Shown here in pieces: positions 3,156 to 24,100 of a DNA stretch of 64,000 nucleotides. The translations under genes and the position numbers were made by a program. The notes under the pieces were generated by a model, which was not told where the DNA came from, did not search any database, and saw only the letters and a list, made by a program, of their open reading frames with translations. Position 1 is the stretch's first letter. Each line of letters starts with the position of its first letter. The stretch covers positions 1-64,000 of the forward strand of contig JADHYX010000082.1 in the NCBI GenBank assembly GCA_027604685.1, written 5' to 3'. This stretch comes from Lobulomyces angularis (lineage: Eukaryota; Chytridiomycota; Chytridiomycetes; Lobulomycetales; Lobulomycetaceae).

Positions 3156-6100
3156 TTAGCAGCAGCAGGAGGGGGCATAATAATTAGAAAACAAAGATTT
3201 GTTACTTTTTGCATTAACAATCATAGTATTTATAAATGTAAAAGTAAAGATAATAAGGGAAAAAAAAGTAAGAAAACTACCAAGAGTCATAAAAGAATTC
3301 CAATATTCATAACCATCTGGATAATCTGGAATTCTACGTGGTAATCCAGCCATACCAAGAAAATGCATAGGGAAAAAAACAAGATTAATTGCTATAGTAA
3401 AGATCCAAAAATGAATTTGTCCCCATACTTCATTATATTGATATCCAGTAATTTTTCCTATCCAATAATAAAAACCACCAAGTAAAGCATAAACAGCTCC
3501 CATGGATAATAGTGAAATAACAAACCGGTCCTTATGATTGAGAGTTTGAAGATACAACAATCACTTAGGGATCCAGAGAGTCTTTCCCGAACCGTACGTG
3601 AAACTTTCGCATCATACGGCTCTCCAAAAAGTTACTAATAAAAATGTACTGATTACTAACCTGGACCGTGATACTAACCTTTATGAATTTTTATATGACA
3701 GGGAAGACAAACTGGTATTTGTCTTCGATTCAATCTTATCATTAGTGATTTAGTGTAGTTATCTTTGTTAGAAGGACTTATGTTACTAATTTTATTGATG
3801 TGATGCATTTCGACTTGTTCATTAGATCCACATATACTACAAATTGCGTTAGTCATAGTTATAGTTCTATAGGTTTTTTTACTAAACAAATCTATGATAC
3901 TAGCAGGATCATAGTTATAATTAAGTTTAAGAATGTGTTTGGATTTAAATTCGTCGTATTTAGGAAAAGATATTTTCTTTTTATCTTTTGTCTCTACAGT
4001 CAAATCTGGTCCATATTTCTTAAACGTTTTTCTTAGTGTATTTAGTTTCATCTTTGAACAGATGGTCAATGCACATGAATATTTTAGTATATAGTACATT
4101 CTTGCTTTGAATTTAGTAAAATTATTAGTAAAGGTATAATAATTGATAATTCCTCTGAGAATAGATGTGAAATGTTGAATAATCATATGCTCATTAAGGT
4201 GAATCTATTTACCATTTCTGGTAGGGACAATAGAACCTTTACTTATTTTCGCATATTTCTTTTCTACTAGTTTGTTACATAGGTATGATATGGGAGCCAA
4301 TAGTTGAGGTCTAGGTTTGAAAGATACTAGTTTTCTTTTACCCAATTTTGTGACGTATCTTCTTTGATATTTGTCGAAAGGAGTTATTTTAACGTCAGTA
4401 CCAAGAAATCTAACCGGTTCTTTTGAGTGAGTAATTCTAGTTTTCTCCTAGTTCAAGTTCATTCCCAGATGAGTGCTAATGAAATTGGCTATATCAGTTT
4501 TTATTTTATTAGCGTCTGCTTTGCTTCCGGAAACTCCGATGAGGAAATCATCGGCATATCTTACGTAGTGCTATCTTTTAAAGTTTACATCGTTACCCAT
4601 TAGGGAATTTATTTTAGATTTATAAATAGCTACAATTCTTTTTACTTGTTCGAGTTTACTGACTTTTCTCCTAATGATTTTGGTGTACTCGGGGTTTGCT
4701 CGTCTACGTTCACCTTTATTGAAACTTGTAGTGTAATCATCAATCCATTTATCCTATTCATTAAGTACAATATTACTAATTATTGGACTAATTACAGATC
4801 CTTGAGGAGCTCCGACTTTGGTATTATGGAATATTTTATCGAAGCTTATATATCCAGCCCTCTAAGATTTCCATAGTAGATCAGTAAAAACTTGATCATC
4901 TATTCTCTTAGCGATTAGGTTCATAAAAACCTTATGATCTATAGTGTCGAAGCATTTCGAGATGTCCCCTTCAATGAACCAATGAGAACTACCAAATTTC
5001 ATCTTTATATCATTCAATGCAGAGTGACAGCTTCTTTTGGGTCTAAACCCGTGAGAAGTATGGTGAAATGTGGGTTCAAAAATGGCTTCTAGAATCATCC
5101 TCATAGCTTCCAAGACTATTTTATCTCTGGGGGAAATAATTCCCTAAGGTCTTGTCCCACCTTTAGGTTTAGGAATATCTAGTCTTCTAGCAGGTTTAAA
5201 GCTAAATCTACCAGTTCTAATATCCGATGAAGTTTTATTAAACCAGTCTTTATTAATTCCATCCAAGGTAGTGTTGTTTGTACCTTTAGTGTTAGGATTT
5301 CTACGAACTTTATCATAGGCTGCCTACTACATGGTAGTATTGGTTAGTATCTTGCTGACATTTCTGTTAACAAGTTTAAGGTTATTAATATTATCTTTTA
5401 TTAGTTGTTCAAATTCCTTTATACCCTAGGGCATATCTTCCTAAGAACTAACTTTTCTGATTCCCTTTGTATCAGTTTCTTTGGAAAATCTGGTACTACT
5501 ATGGAATCTCCGTTGTCCCATTATCTTTCGATCTTCGGACAATCCCGAGTTCTTATTTGGTCTGCCATGTACATTTAGGTCCTTCAGAATATATAGGCAT
5601 CTACCTGATGCCTGACTAGTGGATTGACTCTGTGATCTCATCATTACGTAAAATAGAGACACCATTACTAGAAGGAGGCTGCTCCCCGGAACTTCAAATC
5701 CGTCATATTCATTGTAAAGAAGTTCGTTATCCTAACCATATGTACCGTAGCTCGAAGATACTCTTTCAATCTCCTTTATCAGTATGCTATTTTCCCCTCT
5801 GAGTTGGCCCCAGATAGGTGAACTGATTGCTTTATAGTAAAATTCCATGTTTGGAAGATGAGTCAATTCTACTAGGATTTTTCCAATCCAACAGATCAAA
5901 TAATTAAACGGCGCACCATAATGAAAATGTCCGACTACGTAATAAGTGAAATGGAAGATCTGCATATTTATGCAGATCTTTACTCCCCTCACAGGGAGGA
6001 TCGGACTATCTCTTTATTATAGATTAACAATCATGACTTTAATCTTAATACATTGCGTATAGTCTCTACAGATCTTGTTTTTTTATCCTCTACTCGAGTA

Positions 6101-9100
6101 GACTCTTACTTCTTTAAACAAAACCCACGGCATAGCCTATTGTTCTGTCGGATAGAGTTGCTAAAGCTCTAAACAATAGATTCCACCGTTCAGGTCTCTA
6201 TCAGAGACAACGGATTAAAACGCTTAGCCCCCCCCACTATCTCATCAAAGGTATCGAGGGTAGAGAATAGAAGAAGGGTGTAAAATAATTTATTTCTCAA
6301 AGGTATCTAGTTTTGTGGATCTCTAATAAAGTGGGGTGAGTCCCCTAAATATATTTCACTTCACATTTTAGGAATAATAGGGATAAGTGAAATATATATT
6401 GCTTATATGGAGCGGAAGTATTAGATTCCTTTATAAATTTAGGATTATTGCCTAGATTATCTATAAAACATGAGTATAAATTATAAGAAAGTAAGAAAAC
6501 GTTTTAATAAAGCAATGTGACTGCACAACACTTAAAATTAATCAATTAAACCAAGTAATAAACGATTAATATGAAAATCTCTAAAATATTTATATTGAGA
6601 ATATTTATTACCTAGCAAAGGATATTTATCCTAATGTTCAAATAGGTATTTTCTAGAAACAGCATTATATAGATGAAGTCTGTAATAAGGTATAAAAATG
6701 CAAGATTTAAATTTATTCGATATAATAATTTTATCTTGTAGAATTTTGTTATTGCTTTTAAATTTAGTTTTTATCATGTTAATAACATGCAATTCGCCTT
6801 TTTGACCAATGGAAAAAGCAGATTTATGTAGACGTCCTTCTTTAAAGACCAAATTGAAATTACCTTCAGCTTCGATAAATCCTGACAACCAAGGATTAAA
6901 ATAAAAAGGAGGATTGTTATATATTTTATCAATTGATACACCTTTGTTAAACCCAGATATATTTTCATAAAAAATATATTTATTTTTTCGAGAACAATTA
7001 AAATCTTCTATTGTCTTTGGAGGATTGTCCAAACAATCTTGTGCAAATTTATATTGTACTTGTTTTCTAAATGTCTAAAATGGGTATTTATCAAATATTT
7101 TAAATATTTTATTTACATCTTTTTTATTAGAAGCTATCCAAGTAATATATTTATCTTTTCTTTCTATGACTACTCTTCCACCTATTACATTTTTAATAAA
7201 ATTTAGCATTTTAACATTTCCATCAATATTACTCTAAGCTATTACTAGACGAACTCTAATATAATTTGAATTTAGACTCGTTGAAATTGTACCATCTCCT
7301 TCAAACTAACCTATAAAAAATTGTTCAATATATGCTTTATCACAGGAAAAATTATCACCATAAAATTTTTTATCTGGGTCTGTATGATATATCTTATGGT
7401 GATTTTTATTTATGATATGAGTTAGTAGGGCATACCCTAGTACAAAATCAGATATTTCATAAAAAGGCGGCAATTGATTAATTATATTTTTATCGTGGAA
7501 AGCTAAATCTATTGCAGCATTAGCTAAAATTACACCGGTAAAACCACCAAATGTAAATAAAAGAATAAATGCAACTGCAAACTACATAGGAGTAGAATAC
7601 TAGTGTACAGAACCACCATACATTGTTGCCCAGGGTTCAGCCTTCTATTATTTCAAATACAGCAATTCTTCAACACATTCCTTATGCTAATAGCAAATAT
7701 GTATTTACATATATAGATTTGTGTTCATATTAATGCCAGTGGAGACATTAAAGAAGAATTCTTCTAAAAAGAAGTGGCTTATTTTCAATTTAATCTTTAC
7801 TGTTAAATTTTATAAGATTAAATTTCTTTTCTTCTCAATAAATTTAATTCTATTATTCAATTATAAAATAATATTATTTTAATAGAAGAAAAAACACCAT
7901 TACTGGGGAACTGGACCATTCCTTATTATTTCATAGGTTAAAAGAACCCTTAGAAATACTGTAGCGTCTGGCCTCTACTCTTTTACATAGAACTTTCGTA
8001 ACTATGATTTAGATCGACGATATTCCTAATTCAATTTCTTTTCTATCCTTAGGAGTTCTCTCGAGTTTGCCACACAGATAATTATAAATAATCTCTATTA
8101 AAATGTTGAATACCCTATTTATATTTCATACTTGGAACTATAAATGGTTCCAAAAAAGGAATAAGAGATTGAACAGATTTAGAAGTAATATATATTACTG
8201 GATTTCCTCTATGATAATGTAGATTACATATCTAATTCCATTTTATAATAAATATATTCATAATGAATACAACTTCTTTTATTGTAAAGGAATCAGTTTT
8301 AAGTATAATACCTGATTTATAAGTACCATCACAACAAATCCAATGAGCCTAAGATTCATAAGTCTATGAATCCCAAAGATTAACTGGTACTCTTTTCTTT
8401 CCTTGTTTATAAAAGTCCTAATACAAATTAGTTAGACAAGGTAAAGATCTGGTAGATAGTTGCATGAAATAATGAATTTTATTAGCATATTTTATTTCGA
8501 TACCTCTAATAAATTGCCCATTATAACTAGTTTTAACAAGAAAAGGAGGACTAGAACAATAATGAGATATTTTATTAAATACATATAAAAAATATTCAAT
8601 ATTTTTCATAGATTGTTTAAATCCCTATCTAGTACTACCTGTTTTATTAATTTGCTACCAGGCATCAGATATTATAATTCCTACAAATATACCTTTCATT
8701 TGAGGGGGTATAGATACCATATATTTTATAATTGAAGTATATTTAGGCAAATGATAAGTAGATGTCAGGTTAGATCCATAAATTACCTATTTATTATTTA
8801 TTTTATTTTCTGGAAGATACTAACGATTAGATCTAGGAAATATATCATATACACTTTTATCCTTCTATCTGTTTCTATTTATAACTCTGCTGGTCGAATA
8901 ATCCTTGCTGAAGGGAATTGACAACCATGAAAAAACTTTAATACCAGTAGGCTAAGCAATTATCATAGTTGCACTTGTAAAATATGCTCTAGTCAATTAA
9001 TGGACTCTATCTTCACCCTTAAATTAAGGGGTCGGCGTATTAGTCTCTGAGGATCCTCTTATTTTTATATATATAACTTATACGGTTTTTATAATTAATT

Positions 9101-18100: not shown

Positions 18101-21100
18101 GAGTAGTGTTTATTTGAATAAATAGAATAGCAACAATTATACTATTTATATTGGACAACATATCACTTTTTAGTTTTATTGTCCAACCTGTACCTGCACC
18201 TCCTGCTAATAGACCAGTAGTTAATAAGATCTAAGAAGGGGGTAACAACCAAAAACTAATATTATTCTAACGTGGAAATCAATTTATATATGCACTTTCG
18301 TGCACATCTGGACTATGTCTTCATCCTTCATTCACATAAGATAGTAAAATATCGTCAAAATAGCTTTTACTATTATACCGGCTACGCATCTTATTTGTCA
18401 TTCATGAAGGAGCCTGGCGTATTTTGGCTTATTAAGCCAACTGTATTTATGTAATACAAGTCTCTGAGGATCCTACTTTATGAATTATATCCTCTTTTTT
18501 TGGGTAGAATTCATATTTGGTTTCCTGCATATTCTCCCCATGTATATATTTATTATTCATGCTCATAATTCCTATTTTATAGGATATATATTATAATAAT
18601 ACGTAGATTATAATAATACGTAGGTGAAAATAATACGTAGGTGAAAATGATTTGGGCATTCATTGAAATATTCCTATTATGAGTTTTATATATCTGTTCT
18701 TTTCGTTTATTATTTAAAGATATTATTGGTTTTCCTATTTGTTTTTACTATTGAATTTTAGGATAAATATCTAAAAAAGGCAACAAATCCTTCGAGGAAT
18801 TCCATGCATATGGCCAAGTATAATTTGTTTTGTTACCAAAACAATAGGCATTTAAAGAATAAGATTATTAAGATGATCCCAATTAAAATATGTTCTTTTA
18901 TCATTCATACAATTTTTAGATATTTTAATTATTGATTTTCCTTTATCTTTCAAATGGATTTTATCTATTATCTATTTATGTGCATTTTTCCATTCTTTAA
19001 AATCTAGATATTTGCTACTAAATAGAGGATAATTATCAAGATAATCTATCAACAATTGAACAGATTTTTGATTTTCAATTTTTATAATATAATAACTATT
19101 TTTATAATTCTATCTTGTTCTAATATTTAGTTTTATATCAAACTACTCGCATATTTTAGATATTATTGGTTTATAACTTTCTTTAGTTTTTGGATATATC
19201 ATTCGTTGTTCTAGGCTAAATTTACATTGAATTTGTTTTGGAGTATATTTAATATAAAAACCCCCATCAGCATCTATAAAACCAGCCTACCAACTATTAT
19301 CTTCTATTTTAGTAGAATCCAAAGGTAGTTTAGTAATATTAGATGAATGATTTTTATTCATCCAATCTACCAAGATATTAAATTGATCTATCTTAGGTGT
19401 TCTAAATTTACCATTTATTAGATTTATTATCCGTTTAATTGTTTTTATACTCCCAAATCTAAGTTCTATTGAATTAGTATTTCTTTTTACTATAAAACCA
19501 CTAGATTTACCACCGATTTTATTATAGAGAAATTCGGCGAGAGGTTTATCTTTAATATTAAAAGTTATACCCAAAATAATTCTATTTTTATTAGTGATGG
19601 ATATATATCCATCACCTTCTATCTAACCTGTCAAATAATAACCAAAATTATGTTCTTTTTCTTTTATTATATTATTTCTTGTTTGTTTAATTGGTACCCC
19701 CAACTGGGCGTTACATGATGTATACATATTAACGTTATACACACATGCATTAGATTCATCTTTCTTTTTATTCTCTTTAGAATATTTTGCCATCAATATT
19801 GTTATCGTATAGTATTTTATCCTATACTTCTTATGATTACTCATAAGTTCAGACTATGTCATTCATCTTCTCGTCATATTCGCTCCATAGAAGCGTAGTA
19901 AACGAAGTATTAGATGATCAGGCGTTCTTGGACTTTCTTTTATGTGTATATAAAAGAAAGAAAGTAGAGCTAATTACTTTTAGTTTATTGTTGGTAGAAC
20001 TCACTATCTAGTCGTTAAACGTTATCCTCACTTAATTGTACATATGTACAAATCTACCGTAAAGATCTTCGCTGTAAATTGTCCTATAAAGGAGATTTTT
20101 ACAATTAACCTGATTATTCATTGTTTCATTATAAAACAAGGGACATGAATAATATAGTATATTATCTTCAAATAGGGTTGTATGAACCTATTCTATGTGT
20201 TAACATAGAATACACATTAATTATATAGGCTCCATCTTAAATAGCAGAATACAAAGACATAGGACAATAGTGTGTATTTATAAATTAAGTATATCTATAA
20301 GATGTTCCCAGTTAATTTTATTATTATTATACTTAATTTGTTCTTCTTTTATATAAATTTTCTATTTATCTCTTTGTATTTTTTGATCTTTTTTATCTTC
20401 CTATTCATTTATTGATTGTATTACTTCTAGAGATTTAGACCAATAAAGATATTTCATTCTTTTACTAGTAAACTATTGATATTTTTTTAGATATGTATCT
20501 AGAAAACATAGTATAGATCTATTTTGAGAAGACAATATCCAATAACTTTTACCAGCATGAATACTTTGACCCAAATTCAATTTAAATTCTTTACTTATTT
20601 GTCGAAGTATTGGTTCATATGGAATACTAGTTTTACTATCAAACATTCTTTGTTCAAGTCTAAATCTTATTATTATACGTGAATTATCTTTAATTTTTCT
20701 AATACTAGCGTCAAAACTCCCATCAGCATCTATAAATCCTGCCAACCAATGATTATTAATCAAATCAGATACCTACATCTCGTTTGATGCACCTTCTATT
20801 TTATACCATTTTTTCTAAGCAATAAATTGATGAATTTTTGGTGTTCTTAGTTTACCATCTATCTAATTAATAATATTTATATGTGATTCCTTATTAGTTA
20901 TAACCTAAACATATGCATGTTCTTTACGTTTATGTCTAATATTACCACCAAGTATTTGTTTCAATTTAAAGACAATAGGATATTCTTTTTCATGAAATGT
21001 AATACAAAAATGAGGAGTAGATTTAGAAGTTTTTGAGATCCAAATATGTCCATCTCCTTCCCAAAGACCTGCTATATAATGACCACATAAGTGTGTATAT

Positions 21101-24100
21101 TTATGTGTATTTGACACTGAATTTGAAGTTACTATATTATGGTATTTTCCATCCGGAGCTCCAACCATAACTGGTACGAGCCAATTCATTTAATCCTTTT
21201 CTTTAAAAAAGGTTTGGACTATATCTTCTCCTTATTAAAAGGAGCACTACGTATATTTCTATAAATATTATAGAAAGCTTTTTTCCTGCGTCTCTGAGGA
21301 TCCTACAAGCTATATTATAATATATGAGATGGAACATCCCAATATACCATATGAGAGTCATACAATAAAATATTATAAAAGGCGTTGGTTTCCTGCGGGT
21401 TGTCCATTATATATAACTTTTAATATAACTAAATTTATGCATCGCAAGCAATGCTTACCCTTTAATAAAATAAAAGTTCTTTAGGAGTTTCTCGACATAC
21501 AGTAGTGTAATAATCCCTTATCTTTCGATAAAAGACGGCAATTGAATTATGTTGAAATGTTATGTGATCATTATGGAAAAAGTTCAAGATGTGACCAATT
21601 AAAGTTTTTTCGAAAAGAATTCATACCTGATTTTATAAATTTAGCTTGATTAATAATTTCTTTTTTTTTTAGAGTTGAAATATTAGTATCCGCTCCCTAG
21701 GGAGCGGAAGCTAGATCTATTATTTTACACCAATCAATATAATCCATATATTTACTAGAATACTAAGGATACATTTCAAAATAACTTCTTAGTATTTTTT
21801 TTGATCTTATAGAGGCAGCTACAAAATAGTATTGATAAGTTATAGATTGATTCTAAAAACGAGATCTAGTATATACATTTACGCTTAGATGATTTGCAAT
21901 TTTAGACTAAATATCAAAATATGAAGTACCATATCCCTCTTCTATTATAGATCTATGATAAGTTTGTCTCTATTCAATTCTAAATTGGGTTTGAATACGA
22001 ACATTATTAGTATTAGATCTAGGTGCAATGATGGTATTAAAATTACCATCAGCATCTACAAAACCTGCAAACCAGTTATTATTTTCAATAGGAGAAAAAT
22101 CCTACCCTTTTTGTACTTTCAATTTAGGATAATTTCCTCCTTTGGTATTCTAATATGTCTAACTTCTTTCATTTATCCATATTATCTATCTATTCTAAGC
22201 TTCCTATTTAGGTGTACGAAAATATCCATGTACCTATTGTATTACTCTATACAGTCCAGCATATTGAGATATTTCCTAAAGAATATATTTACCTTGTTTA
22301 GGTATACTAATACGTCCATATCCTATTCTATTAATCAATATTTTAACCAATGGCATATCTTTTTCATTAAAACAAATTCTTATCTAAGGTTGTCTATTCA
22401 TTATAGTAGGTACTATAATAGTACCATCTCCTTCTATCAACCCCGCTAGATAAGATCCCTATTTGTTTTGTGTTTTTTCTTTATTTTGTTCTTTTTCTAC
22501 TTCTTTTTTTGACACATCATACGAATTAGGGTTATTTTCCAATATTTTAGAGACATCTTTTATCTACATAATATGCTTACCAAATCCTCCAATCTAAATA
22601 GGCATTACCATAGTGAGATAAGATACCATCTCCCATAAGGATAACAATATCTCCCTCCGAGAACCGTACGTGCAGCTTTCACTGCATACGGCTCCTCATT
22701 TTATTTTTTTCTCAGTAAGAAGTTTTATTGATTTTTTATATTTTACCGTCATATATTCCCTTATGAAAATTTTCATGACAAGATCTACACACAGCGATTT
22801 GTTTTCGTTTCATTGCTTTGTCAATGTCCTTAAATCCTTTAATTTGTGCTTTTAGAGATTTAATATGATGCATTTCTATATTGTCAGTAGCACCACATAC
22901 TGTGCATGTTTTATCAATATTTGATATGCTACGTAGTTGGTAATACATTATATCAAATGGATCTTTTTGGTTAATATTGAATCTGCTAGGATAAGCAAAA
23001 GATTTCTTTATTTTCAATGATATTGTTTTCTTTCCATCTTCTGTTTTAACCTTAATCGGGTTTCCATATTTTTTAAATACAGCTGCCCTAGAATTCATAT
23101 TCATTTTTTTTGCAATGGTTTTAGCACAGCTGTGAACCAGCTAATATTGTATGAATTGAAGTCTATATTTGTCTTTAGCACATGAGTAAAAGTTGATCAG
23201 GCCTTGAATTACATAGTTATATCTTATTATAATTTCTGTAATCGGGAGGCTAATCCATGCAGCTTTTCCAGTGGGAATAATAAGTCCTTTATTATAGTCC
23301 TCAATTCTGCATATGCTTTGATTTTCTAGTTTTTCAATAATCATTTGAATAGGAATCATAAGATTTATATTATTAGCGGCAATCCTAGATTTAACTATTC
23401 TATTTGAGTATTGTTTATAAATAGTTTTTTGATTATGGTTTCGGGAGAAAGGAACATATATATTAAGTCCAAGAAAAAGACATTTATCTTGAGACTTCGT
23501 AATCTTTTCTATAGACATGGTAAGTTTAAGTTCATCTTTAAGGAAAATTTTAATTTCTTCTTTAAGTTTTTCAGACAATTGAGCACTACCATTGATTCCT
23601 ACCTAGAAATCGTCCGCGTATCTAATATAATATATTCTATTTCCAGTGGATCTAACTATAGAAGGAATTTTTCCTCTTTCCCTTTTTAGGTCTTTCTATT
23701 TATTATATCCATCTTTAACTAGTTTCAGTCCTTTATTCATTCTTCTATATATTGTATGAATTTTTGATTCAATTTGTCTATATATAGTATTTATTTCCGT
23801 TGTATTTCCAGAGGTGTAGCTTTCATCACATTTATCTTTCATGAATTTATCAAATTCATGGAGATATATATTAGACAAAATAGGACTCTATACACTTCCT
23901 TGAGGAGTTCCAACTAGTGCATCAGTTTTATTTGATTTTTTAACCTCAACGTATCCAGCTCTAATAGCTTTCCAAATCAGATCTATGAATTCCTGATCTT
24001 TCACTCTCATTTCTATAAGAGAAATAAGTTTATGGTGGTCTATAGTATCAAAGTAGCTTTTTATGTCTCCTTCTATAAACCAATTTATAGATTTCCAAGT

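Follow-up and report, generated by a model that had tools for sequence, protein, structure and literature searches.

The cox1 gene of Lobulomyces angularis (Chytridiomycetes, Lobulomycetales) raises the question of where the methionine and the first two bases of the alanine codon that stand between GAPD and FPRLNN are encoded. The gene lies in mitochondrial DNA, on the minus strand of the window, by which the whole stretch of 64,000 nucleotides analyzed here is meant. An earlier note on this DNA had proposed that these bases occur solely as ATGGC, an exon of five nucleotides between two complete group I introns. All cox1 and endonuclease frames were read with UAG as leucine (table 16), which was taken instead of table 4 because the latter gave short frames only in the window. 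The coordinates of the features are collected in Table 1.

A five-nucleotide stretch between exons 3 and 5

As proposed, ATGGC has a single copy in the 2,871 nt separating exon 3 from exon 5 (19793-19789, minus strand). It directly follows ATATTG, the end of intron 3, and intron 4 ends in AAATTG, so that both flanking 3' sites end in G, as the note had also described. The join GAT-ATGGC-ATTTCC, in which ATTTCC are the first bases of exon 5 at 18279, yields GAPDMAFPRLNN in frame, and the joined cox1 product is gap-free through GAPDMAFPRLNN in the two COX1 alignments inspected. When exon 4 was left out of the join, the frame ran into stops; the exon is needed both for the frame and for conserved residues. 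In composition shuffles of 2,865 of these bases, the mean number of copies was 0.95 for ATGGC, 0.13 for G+ATGGC and 0.02 for TTG+ATGGC. A bare ATGGC is expected about once by chance, and the 5-mer alone is therefore no evidence; what makes it convincing as an exon is its place, the preceding G and its conservation in relatives. Judged on the DNA evidence, the microexon can be regarded as confirmed.

The joined exons 1 to 8 form an open frame of 744 nt. This total depends on an arbitrary in-frame point, 25345, at which exon 1 was begun because the cox1 start codon was not found, and exon 8 gains 7 bases on a later reading. The claim that the exon length is divisible by three therefore holds in the sense of a frame kept through exons 2 to 8, and it does not hold for the full gene length, the start of exon 1 being arbitrary. 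No in-frame ATG was found upstream in exon 1 within the stretch read (25345-25095, minus strand); another start codon, or a further small exon, is conceivable there.

A separate group I core lies on each side of ATGGC, both matching positions 1-253 of RF00028 with scores below the gathering score of 50: 37.1 bits (E = 6e-8, 541-base search) for intron 3 and 29.2 bits (E = 1.7e-5, 661-base search) for intron 4. Both cores appear in short stretches only, and no group I match was obtained with Rfam over the wider region. Each intron also contains a separate LAGLIDADG gene, whose frame continues that of the preceding exon. The two endonucleases are 34% identical, and the open frame of the intron-4 endonuclease spans the microexon and extends back to 19862.

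Table 1. Features of the cox1 region of the window that bear on the five-nucleotide exon
Feature	Position	Strand	Remarks
cox1 exon 3	21151..21186	minus	begins AATTGG, ends GCTCCGGAT; 12 residues; relatives fused through GAPD
Intron 3, group I, site 276	19794..21150	minus	1,357 nt; starts GGAAAA, ends ATATTG
LAGLIDADG homing endonuclease gene, intron 3	20278..21150	minus	in frame with exon 3; PF00961 E 6.3e-25
Tentative internal guide, intron 3	20262..20270	minus	CTAT-T-GTCC
Second candidate guide, intron 3	20149-20141	minus	sequence scan
Group I core, intron 3	19830..20160	minus	P7-like halves GACTA at 20013, TAGTC at 19856
cox1 exon 4, microexon ATGGC	19789..19793	minus	Met and two bases of Ala
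Intron 4, group I, site 281	18280..19788	minus	1,509 nt; starts AAAATA, ends AAATTG
LAGLIDADG homing endonuclease gene, intron 4	18852..19793	minus	PF00961 E 1.3e-23
Proposed internal guide, intron 4	18847..18853	minus	AAAUGCC, complementary to GGC/AUUU (stroke, splice site); overlaps ORF stop
P2-like hairpin after intron-4 guide	18825..18844	minus	fold
Group I core, intron 4	18289..18496	minus	P7-like halves GACTT at 18462, TAGTC at 18315
cox1 exon 5	18178..18279	minus	begins ATTTCCACG; completes Ala codon, then FPRLNN
Candidate guide, intron 2, same layout	21544-21536	minus	CAAUUGCCG
Second mini-exon of cox1, 11 nt	13390-13380	minus	GGTTTTTTGGT; once in 2,284 nt between neighbours

Insertion points of the two introns in relatives

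The intron-4 endonuclease has 1,991 homologues, of which the best 120 were examined; the entries are clusters at 90% identity and not species. In 66 of these 120, a cox1 sequence ending in DMA runs straight into the endonuclease, i.e. the insertion follows the second base of the alanine codon in DMAFPR, as it also does in the DNA of an environmental contig (L006, below). The others start at MA, which is ambiguous (37), have a non-cox1 lead ending in LMA (7) or belong to none of these classes (10). Intron 4 shares with this class a homologous endonuclease and conserved core blocks. For the intron-3 endonuclease, the best 120 of 384 homologues were examined, and GAPD (GCPD in one) leads straight into a homologous endonuclease in 62 of them, which places the insertion after the aspartate codon. 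Among the remaining entries, 47 correspond to neither site and 11 are fused at DMA, so that this list mixes sites 276 and 281. The numbers 276 and 281 agree with a residue count on the yeast protein, with offsets from the COX1 alignments. The two sites correspond to the published cox1P276 (PMC13254553) and cox1P281 (PMC7325650, PMC10327131), and cox1P281 of Cordyceps blackwelliae has been assigned to subgroup IB (PMC10327131).

With relatives fused to cox1 at GAPD or at DMA, introns 3 and 4 are best read as independent elements whose insertions are 5 bases apart. The relatives mark both ends of the exon independently, and the best reading is that of the earlier note, two complete group I introns separated by an exon of 5 nt. 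To two homing group I introns sitting side by side at sites 276 and 281 and stranding ATGGC as an exon, we assign a probability of a little over nine in ten. The sequence, the frame, the two cores, the two endonuclease families and the insertion points are all on the side of this reading, and from them we infer that both introns would be spliced exactly at these borders.

Everything between exon 3 and exon 5 could also be a single composite intron (twintron) spliced as a whole, with ATGGC as an intronic sequence or pseudoexon. Tandem group I modules do appear to splice as one unit in Ophiostoma cox3-640 (PMC12308204). Here, however, whole removal would delete the conserved Met-Ala and shift the frame into stops, and the relatives carry each intron fused to cox1 exactly after GAPD or after DMA. 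Instead of an inner intron within an outer one and nothing coding between, two cores were found in series with a coding 5-mer between them. We consider whole removal very unlikely.

The pair itself is probably not unique to the window, judging from one intron-4 homologue, P0002. Over its first 25 residues, which were compared with the window, 22 of 23 residues match the translated end of intron 3, and MA and then an intron-4 endonuclease (79% identity) follow. P0122 is a homologue of the intron-3 endonuclease (84% identical), and for both proteins the longest contig listed has 16,670 bases, which is consistent with one contig. The lead ending in LMA recurs in six further proteins (P0011, P0036, P0046, P0047, P0089 and P0115), a hint that they too might have an upstream intron ending in TTG before ATGGC.

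Two more readings are opposed by P0002. The missing residues could come from RNA editing or translational bypass with no exon at all, and an editing origin had been suggested for placozoan cox1 until a 1-nt exon was discovered there (PMC5436844). However, precisely these five bases lie between the two intron cores, in the right order and frame, and MA is kept at this place in a second organism, that of P0002, which makes such a reading all but negligible. The other is an assembly artefact or a non-functional cox1 copy, conceivable for a draft genome in 533 contigs (20.8 Mb). Against it, all cox1 matches in the assembly lie within this one contig, the exons are open, an exact-pattern search of the assembly, with TAG leucine allowed for, revealed no copy of an already joined exon 3-4-5 junction, and the second organism has the same intron order. 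An artefact is hardly credible.

The intron-3 homologues also include one protein under the name Lobulomyces angularis (77% identity) and one under Clydaea vesicula (72%), each covering 78% of the query; both are identical to the intron-3 endonuclease over long stretches, with pieces missing. These gene models, P0127 and P0128, cut the endonuclease short, probably because UAG was read as a termination codon or assigned to an intron.

More DNA was sought by scans of environmental viral contigs, one of which gave L006 and L007 and the other five no relative, and by a scan of genome contigs, which gave L008; a further scan gave two plasmids of Peribacillus (31-35% identity). Of the three contigs L006, L007 and L008, all searched for cox1 motifs, L006 alone was used for comparison. 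L008 (NZ_BMQF01000050.1, filed as Streptomyces fumigatiscleroticus) shows an apparent cox1 exon of 41 residues and LAGLIDADG-like sequence; it is possibly eukaryotic contamination.

The donor after C and the candidate guides

The earlier note had observed that the 5' site of intron 4 follows C rather than U, as it does in the window, and had seen in this a difficulty. A C before the donor is, however, ordinary at site 281. In Cordyceps blackwelliae, cox1P281 is described as an exception among group I introns in that C is the last base of the exon before it, and transcripts lacking all four cox1 introns are reported (PMC10327131). In L006, an IMG/VR contig and the only other site-281 intron read as DNA, the intron lies between GATATGGC and ATTCCC, i.e. 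the donor again follows C. The L006 endonuclease shares 42% identity with its intron-4 counterpart and 36% with the one in intron 3. The tails of the L006 intron and of intron 4 share ATATGCATGGAATT, GCAGGAAACCAAA, GTAGGATCCTCAGAGACT and GAAGACATAGTCC in a local alignment, which was used after MAFFT had misaligned them. L006 looks like fungal mitochondrial DNA and not like a virus, and its site-281 intron (5835-7624) runs for about 400 nt beyond the point where the window intron ends.

These data bear on whether the exon is real with its edges off by a base or two, for instance by an extra base taken from an adjoining intron. The edges were set here by codon fit together with the rule that the last base of a group I intron is G, which is stated for Cordyceps as well (PMC10327131). 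For the codons of GAT-ATGGC-A to fit, the total has to be 2 modulo 3, and TTG is then the end of both introns; L precedes MA in seven relatives, as a TTG end would give; and L006 shows the same edges, GC before the intron and ATT after it. Shifted edges thus appear highly improbable, and ATGGC with the borders given in Table 1 is retained below.

Just past the endonuclease stop of L006, GGGAAUGCC (6834-6842) is a perfect 9-base complement of GGC/AUUCCC, a match contained in 4 of 5,000 shuffles. A hairpin follows it, and two more pairs extend the duplex to 11 bp. At the homologous position of intron 4 lies AAAUGCC, with 3 pairs in P1 and 4 in P10. At the fourth base past the site, both members of the pair formed with the guide differ, U-A in the window and C-G in L006. 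In intron 2 of cox1, CAAUUGCCG (21544-21536) shows this same layout. The match of AAAUGCC is nevertheless short and weak: the 7-mer is present in 327 of 5,000 shuffles of intron 4, and in a whole-intron scan it scores 17, joint third to fifth of the five candidates listed and listed fifth. Taken together with the layout in L006, it is likely to be the guide of intron 4. P1 of the site-281 class then looks like GGC with GCC, with up to five pairs in L006, which would fit a 5-nt exon. The objection that such an exon leaves almost no room for P1 loses its force, in that the class appears to need the last 3-5 bases, which exon 4 supplies.

Two other candidates of intron 4 were set aside. At intron nt 94 (19695), ACCA with GGGGGU tops the scan with a score of 22, which 19 of 100 shuffles also reached, and 34 of 100 with intron 3 unspliced. 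It was put aside because in L006 the 9-base guide directly follows the endonuclease gene, a place taken in the window by AAAUGCC. The other candidate, GCCAUAU (18814), could form seven pairs with exons 3 and 4 once these are joined, and its counterpart in L006, within the same conserved block, is GCUAUAU. It may still be a guide; the absence of a P10, and its location in a sequence block shared with L006, led to its being set aside. This block, GCYATATGCATGGAATTYCTCGA (18814-18792, minus strand; L006:6876-6898), is conserved in both site-281 introns and resembles the exon junction ATATGGCATTTCC.

Whole-intron scans that take no account of position were not decisive for introns 2, 3 and 4 and clear for intron 5. 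The best score was reached in 68 of 100 shuffles for intron 2 and in 0 of 100 for intron 5; for intron 3 it was matched in 18 of 100, or in 11 of 100 with the neighbour unspliced. Site 276 was represented at the DNA level by intron 3 alone, and its two guide candidates in Table 1 are both tentative. The four guide regions fold into hairpins, with an intron 2 z-score of -2.32 and unremarkable values for the others (-0.71, -0.71 and -0.18).

A proposed splicing mechanism, and other mini-exons

In the proposed mechanism, intron 3 would have been inserted after GAT and intron 4 after ATGGC, each with its own LAGLIDADG endonuclease, and each would be spliced by its own group I core. ATGGC would serve as the 3' exon of intron 3 and as the 5' exon, and whole P1 partner, of intron 4. 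AAAUGCC would pair with GGC/AUUU, with C-G at the donor in place of the usual U-G wobble. The pairings proposed for introns 3 and 4 would, if right, overlap on GG, so both introns probably act in turn. If intron 3 is out first, a ribosome could read on from cox1 across MA and into the endonuclease of intron 4; otherwise the ATG of the microexon could be the start codon of that endonuclease gene.

It is conceivable, and in our opinion rather doubtful, that the 276/281 pair is a recurrent double intron in fungi, jointly inherited, spreading as a block and forcing a splicing order. In such a double intron the five shared bases would act in turn as P10 partner and then as whole P1 partner. On this reading the two endonucleases should recognise overlapping DNA, and therefore either intron alone would block the homing of the other. 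The side-by-side insertion would put two homing introns into a stretch that is presumably a single recognition site, and a natural group I intron may use as little as three to five exon bases before its site.

Each intron has published counterparts. cox1P281 resembles intron 4 in its insertion point, its LAGLIDADG gene and its donor after C (PMC7325650, PMC10327131); the cox1 introns of Cordyceps blackwelliae begin with it, and therefore no site-276 intron precedes it. cox1P276 of Ganoderma lingzhi resembles intron 3 in its insertion point, by name, and its LAGLIDADG gene (PMC13254553). cox1P281 is absent from the ten cox1 introns listed for that species, so no 5-nt exon is expected there (PMC13254553).

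Mini-exons of 1, 3 and 11 nt have already been described, and the microexon of the window is a neat new case and not a new phenomenon. Exon 2 of Agaricus bisporus cox1 has 3 nt, its borders having been set with the help of cDNA (PMC2987802). As in the window, a cox1 exon of a few bases is isolated by two adjacent introns, but it has 3 nt, lies in another place and is followed by a group II intron, iAbi2. In placozoan cox1, a single-base exon, C, lies between two group I introns and was overlooked initially (PMC5436844). It is likewise a tiny exon needed for a conserved residue, and the next donor follows C here too, because the exon is C. In contrast to exon 4, it has 1 nt, belongs to animal mitochondria and has RNA-seq support. 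Mini-exons down to three nucleotides or one are mentioned in an introduction (PMC8971849), and exons under about four codons are described as regular in mitochondrial genes in the MFannot paper (PMC10352661). A 5-nt cox1 exon at 276-281 was not found in the open-licence papers searched, which does not prove its absence elsewhere. Knowledge of mitochondrial splicing is unchanged by exon 4; annotators should note that standard gene-finding programs can overlook such exons and report cox1 as broken.

A mini-exon of 11 nt between cox1 sites 720 and 731 is tabulated in PMC10327131. Like exon 4, it lies between adjacent cox1 introns, but its 11 nt leave more room for P1. The second mini-exon of the window cox1 is of a size that fits these known sites 720 and 731. 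Its neighbours are an exon ending in CAACATTAGTTCT (14691) and an exon starting with CATCCAGAAG (12406), and the three joined read QHLFWFFGHPEVY.
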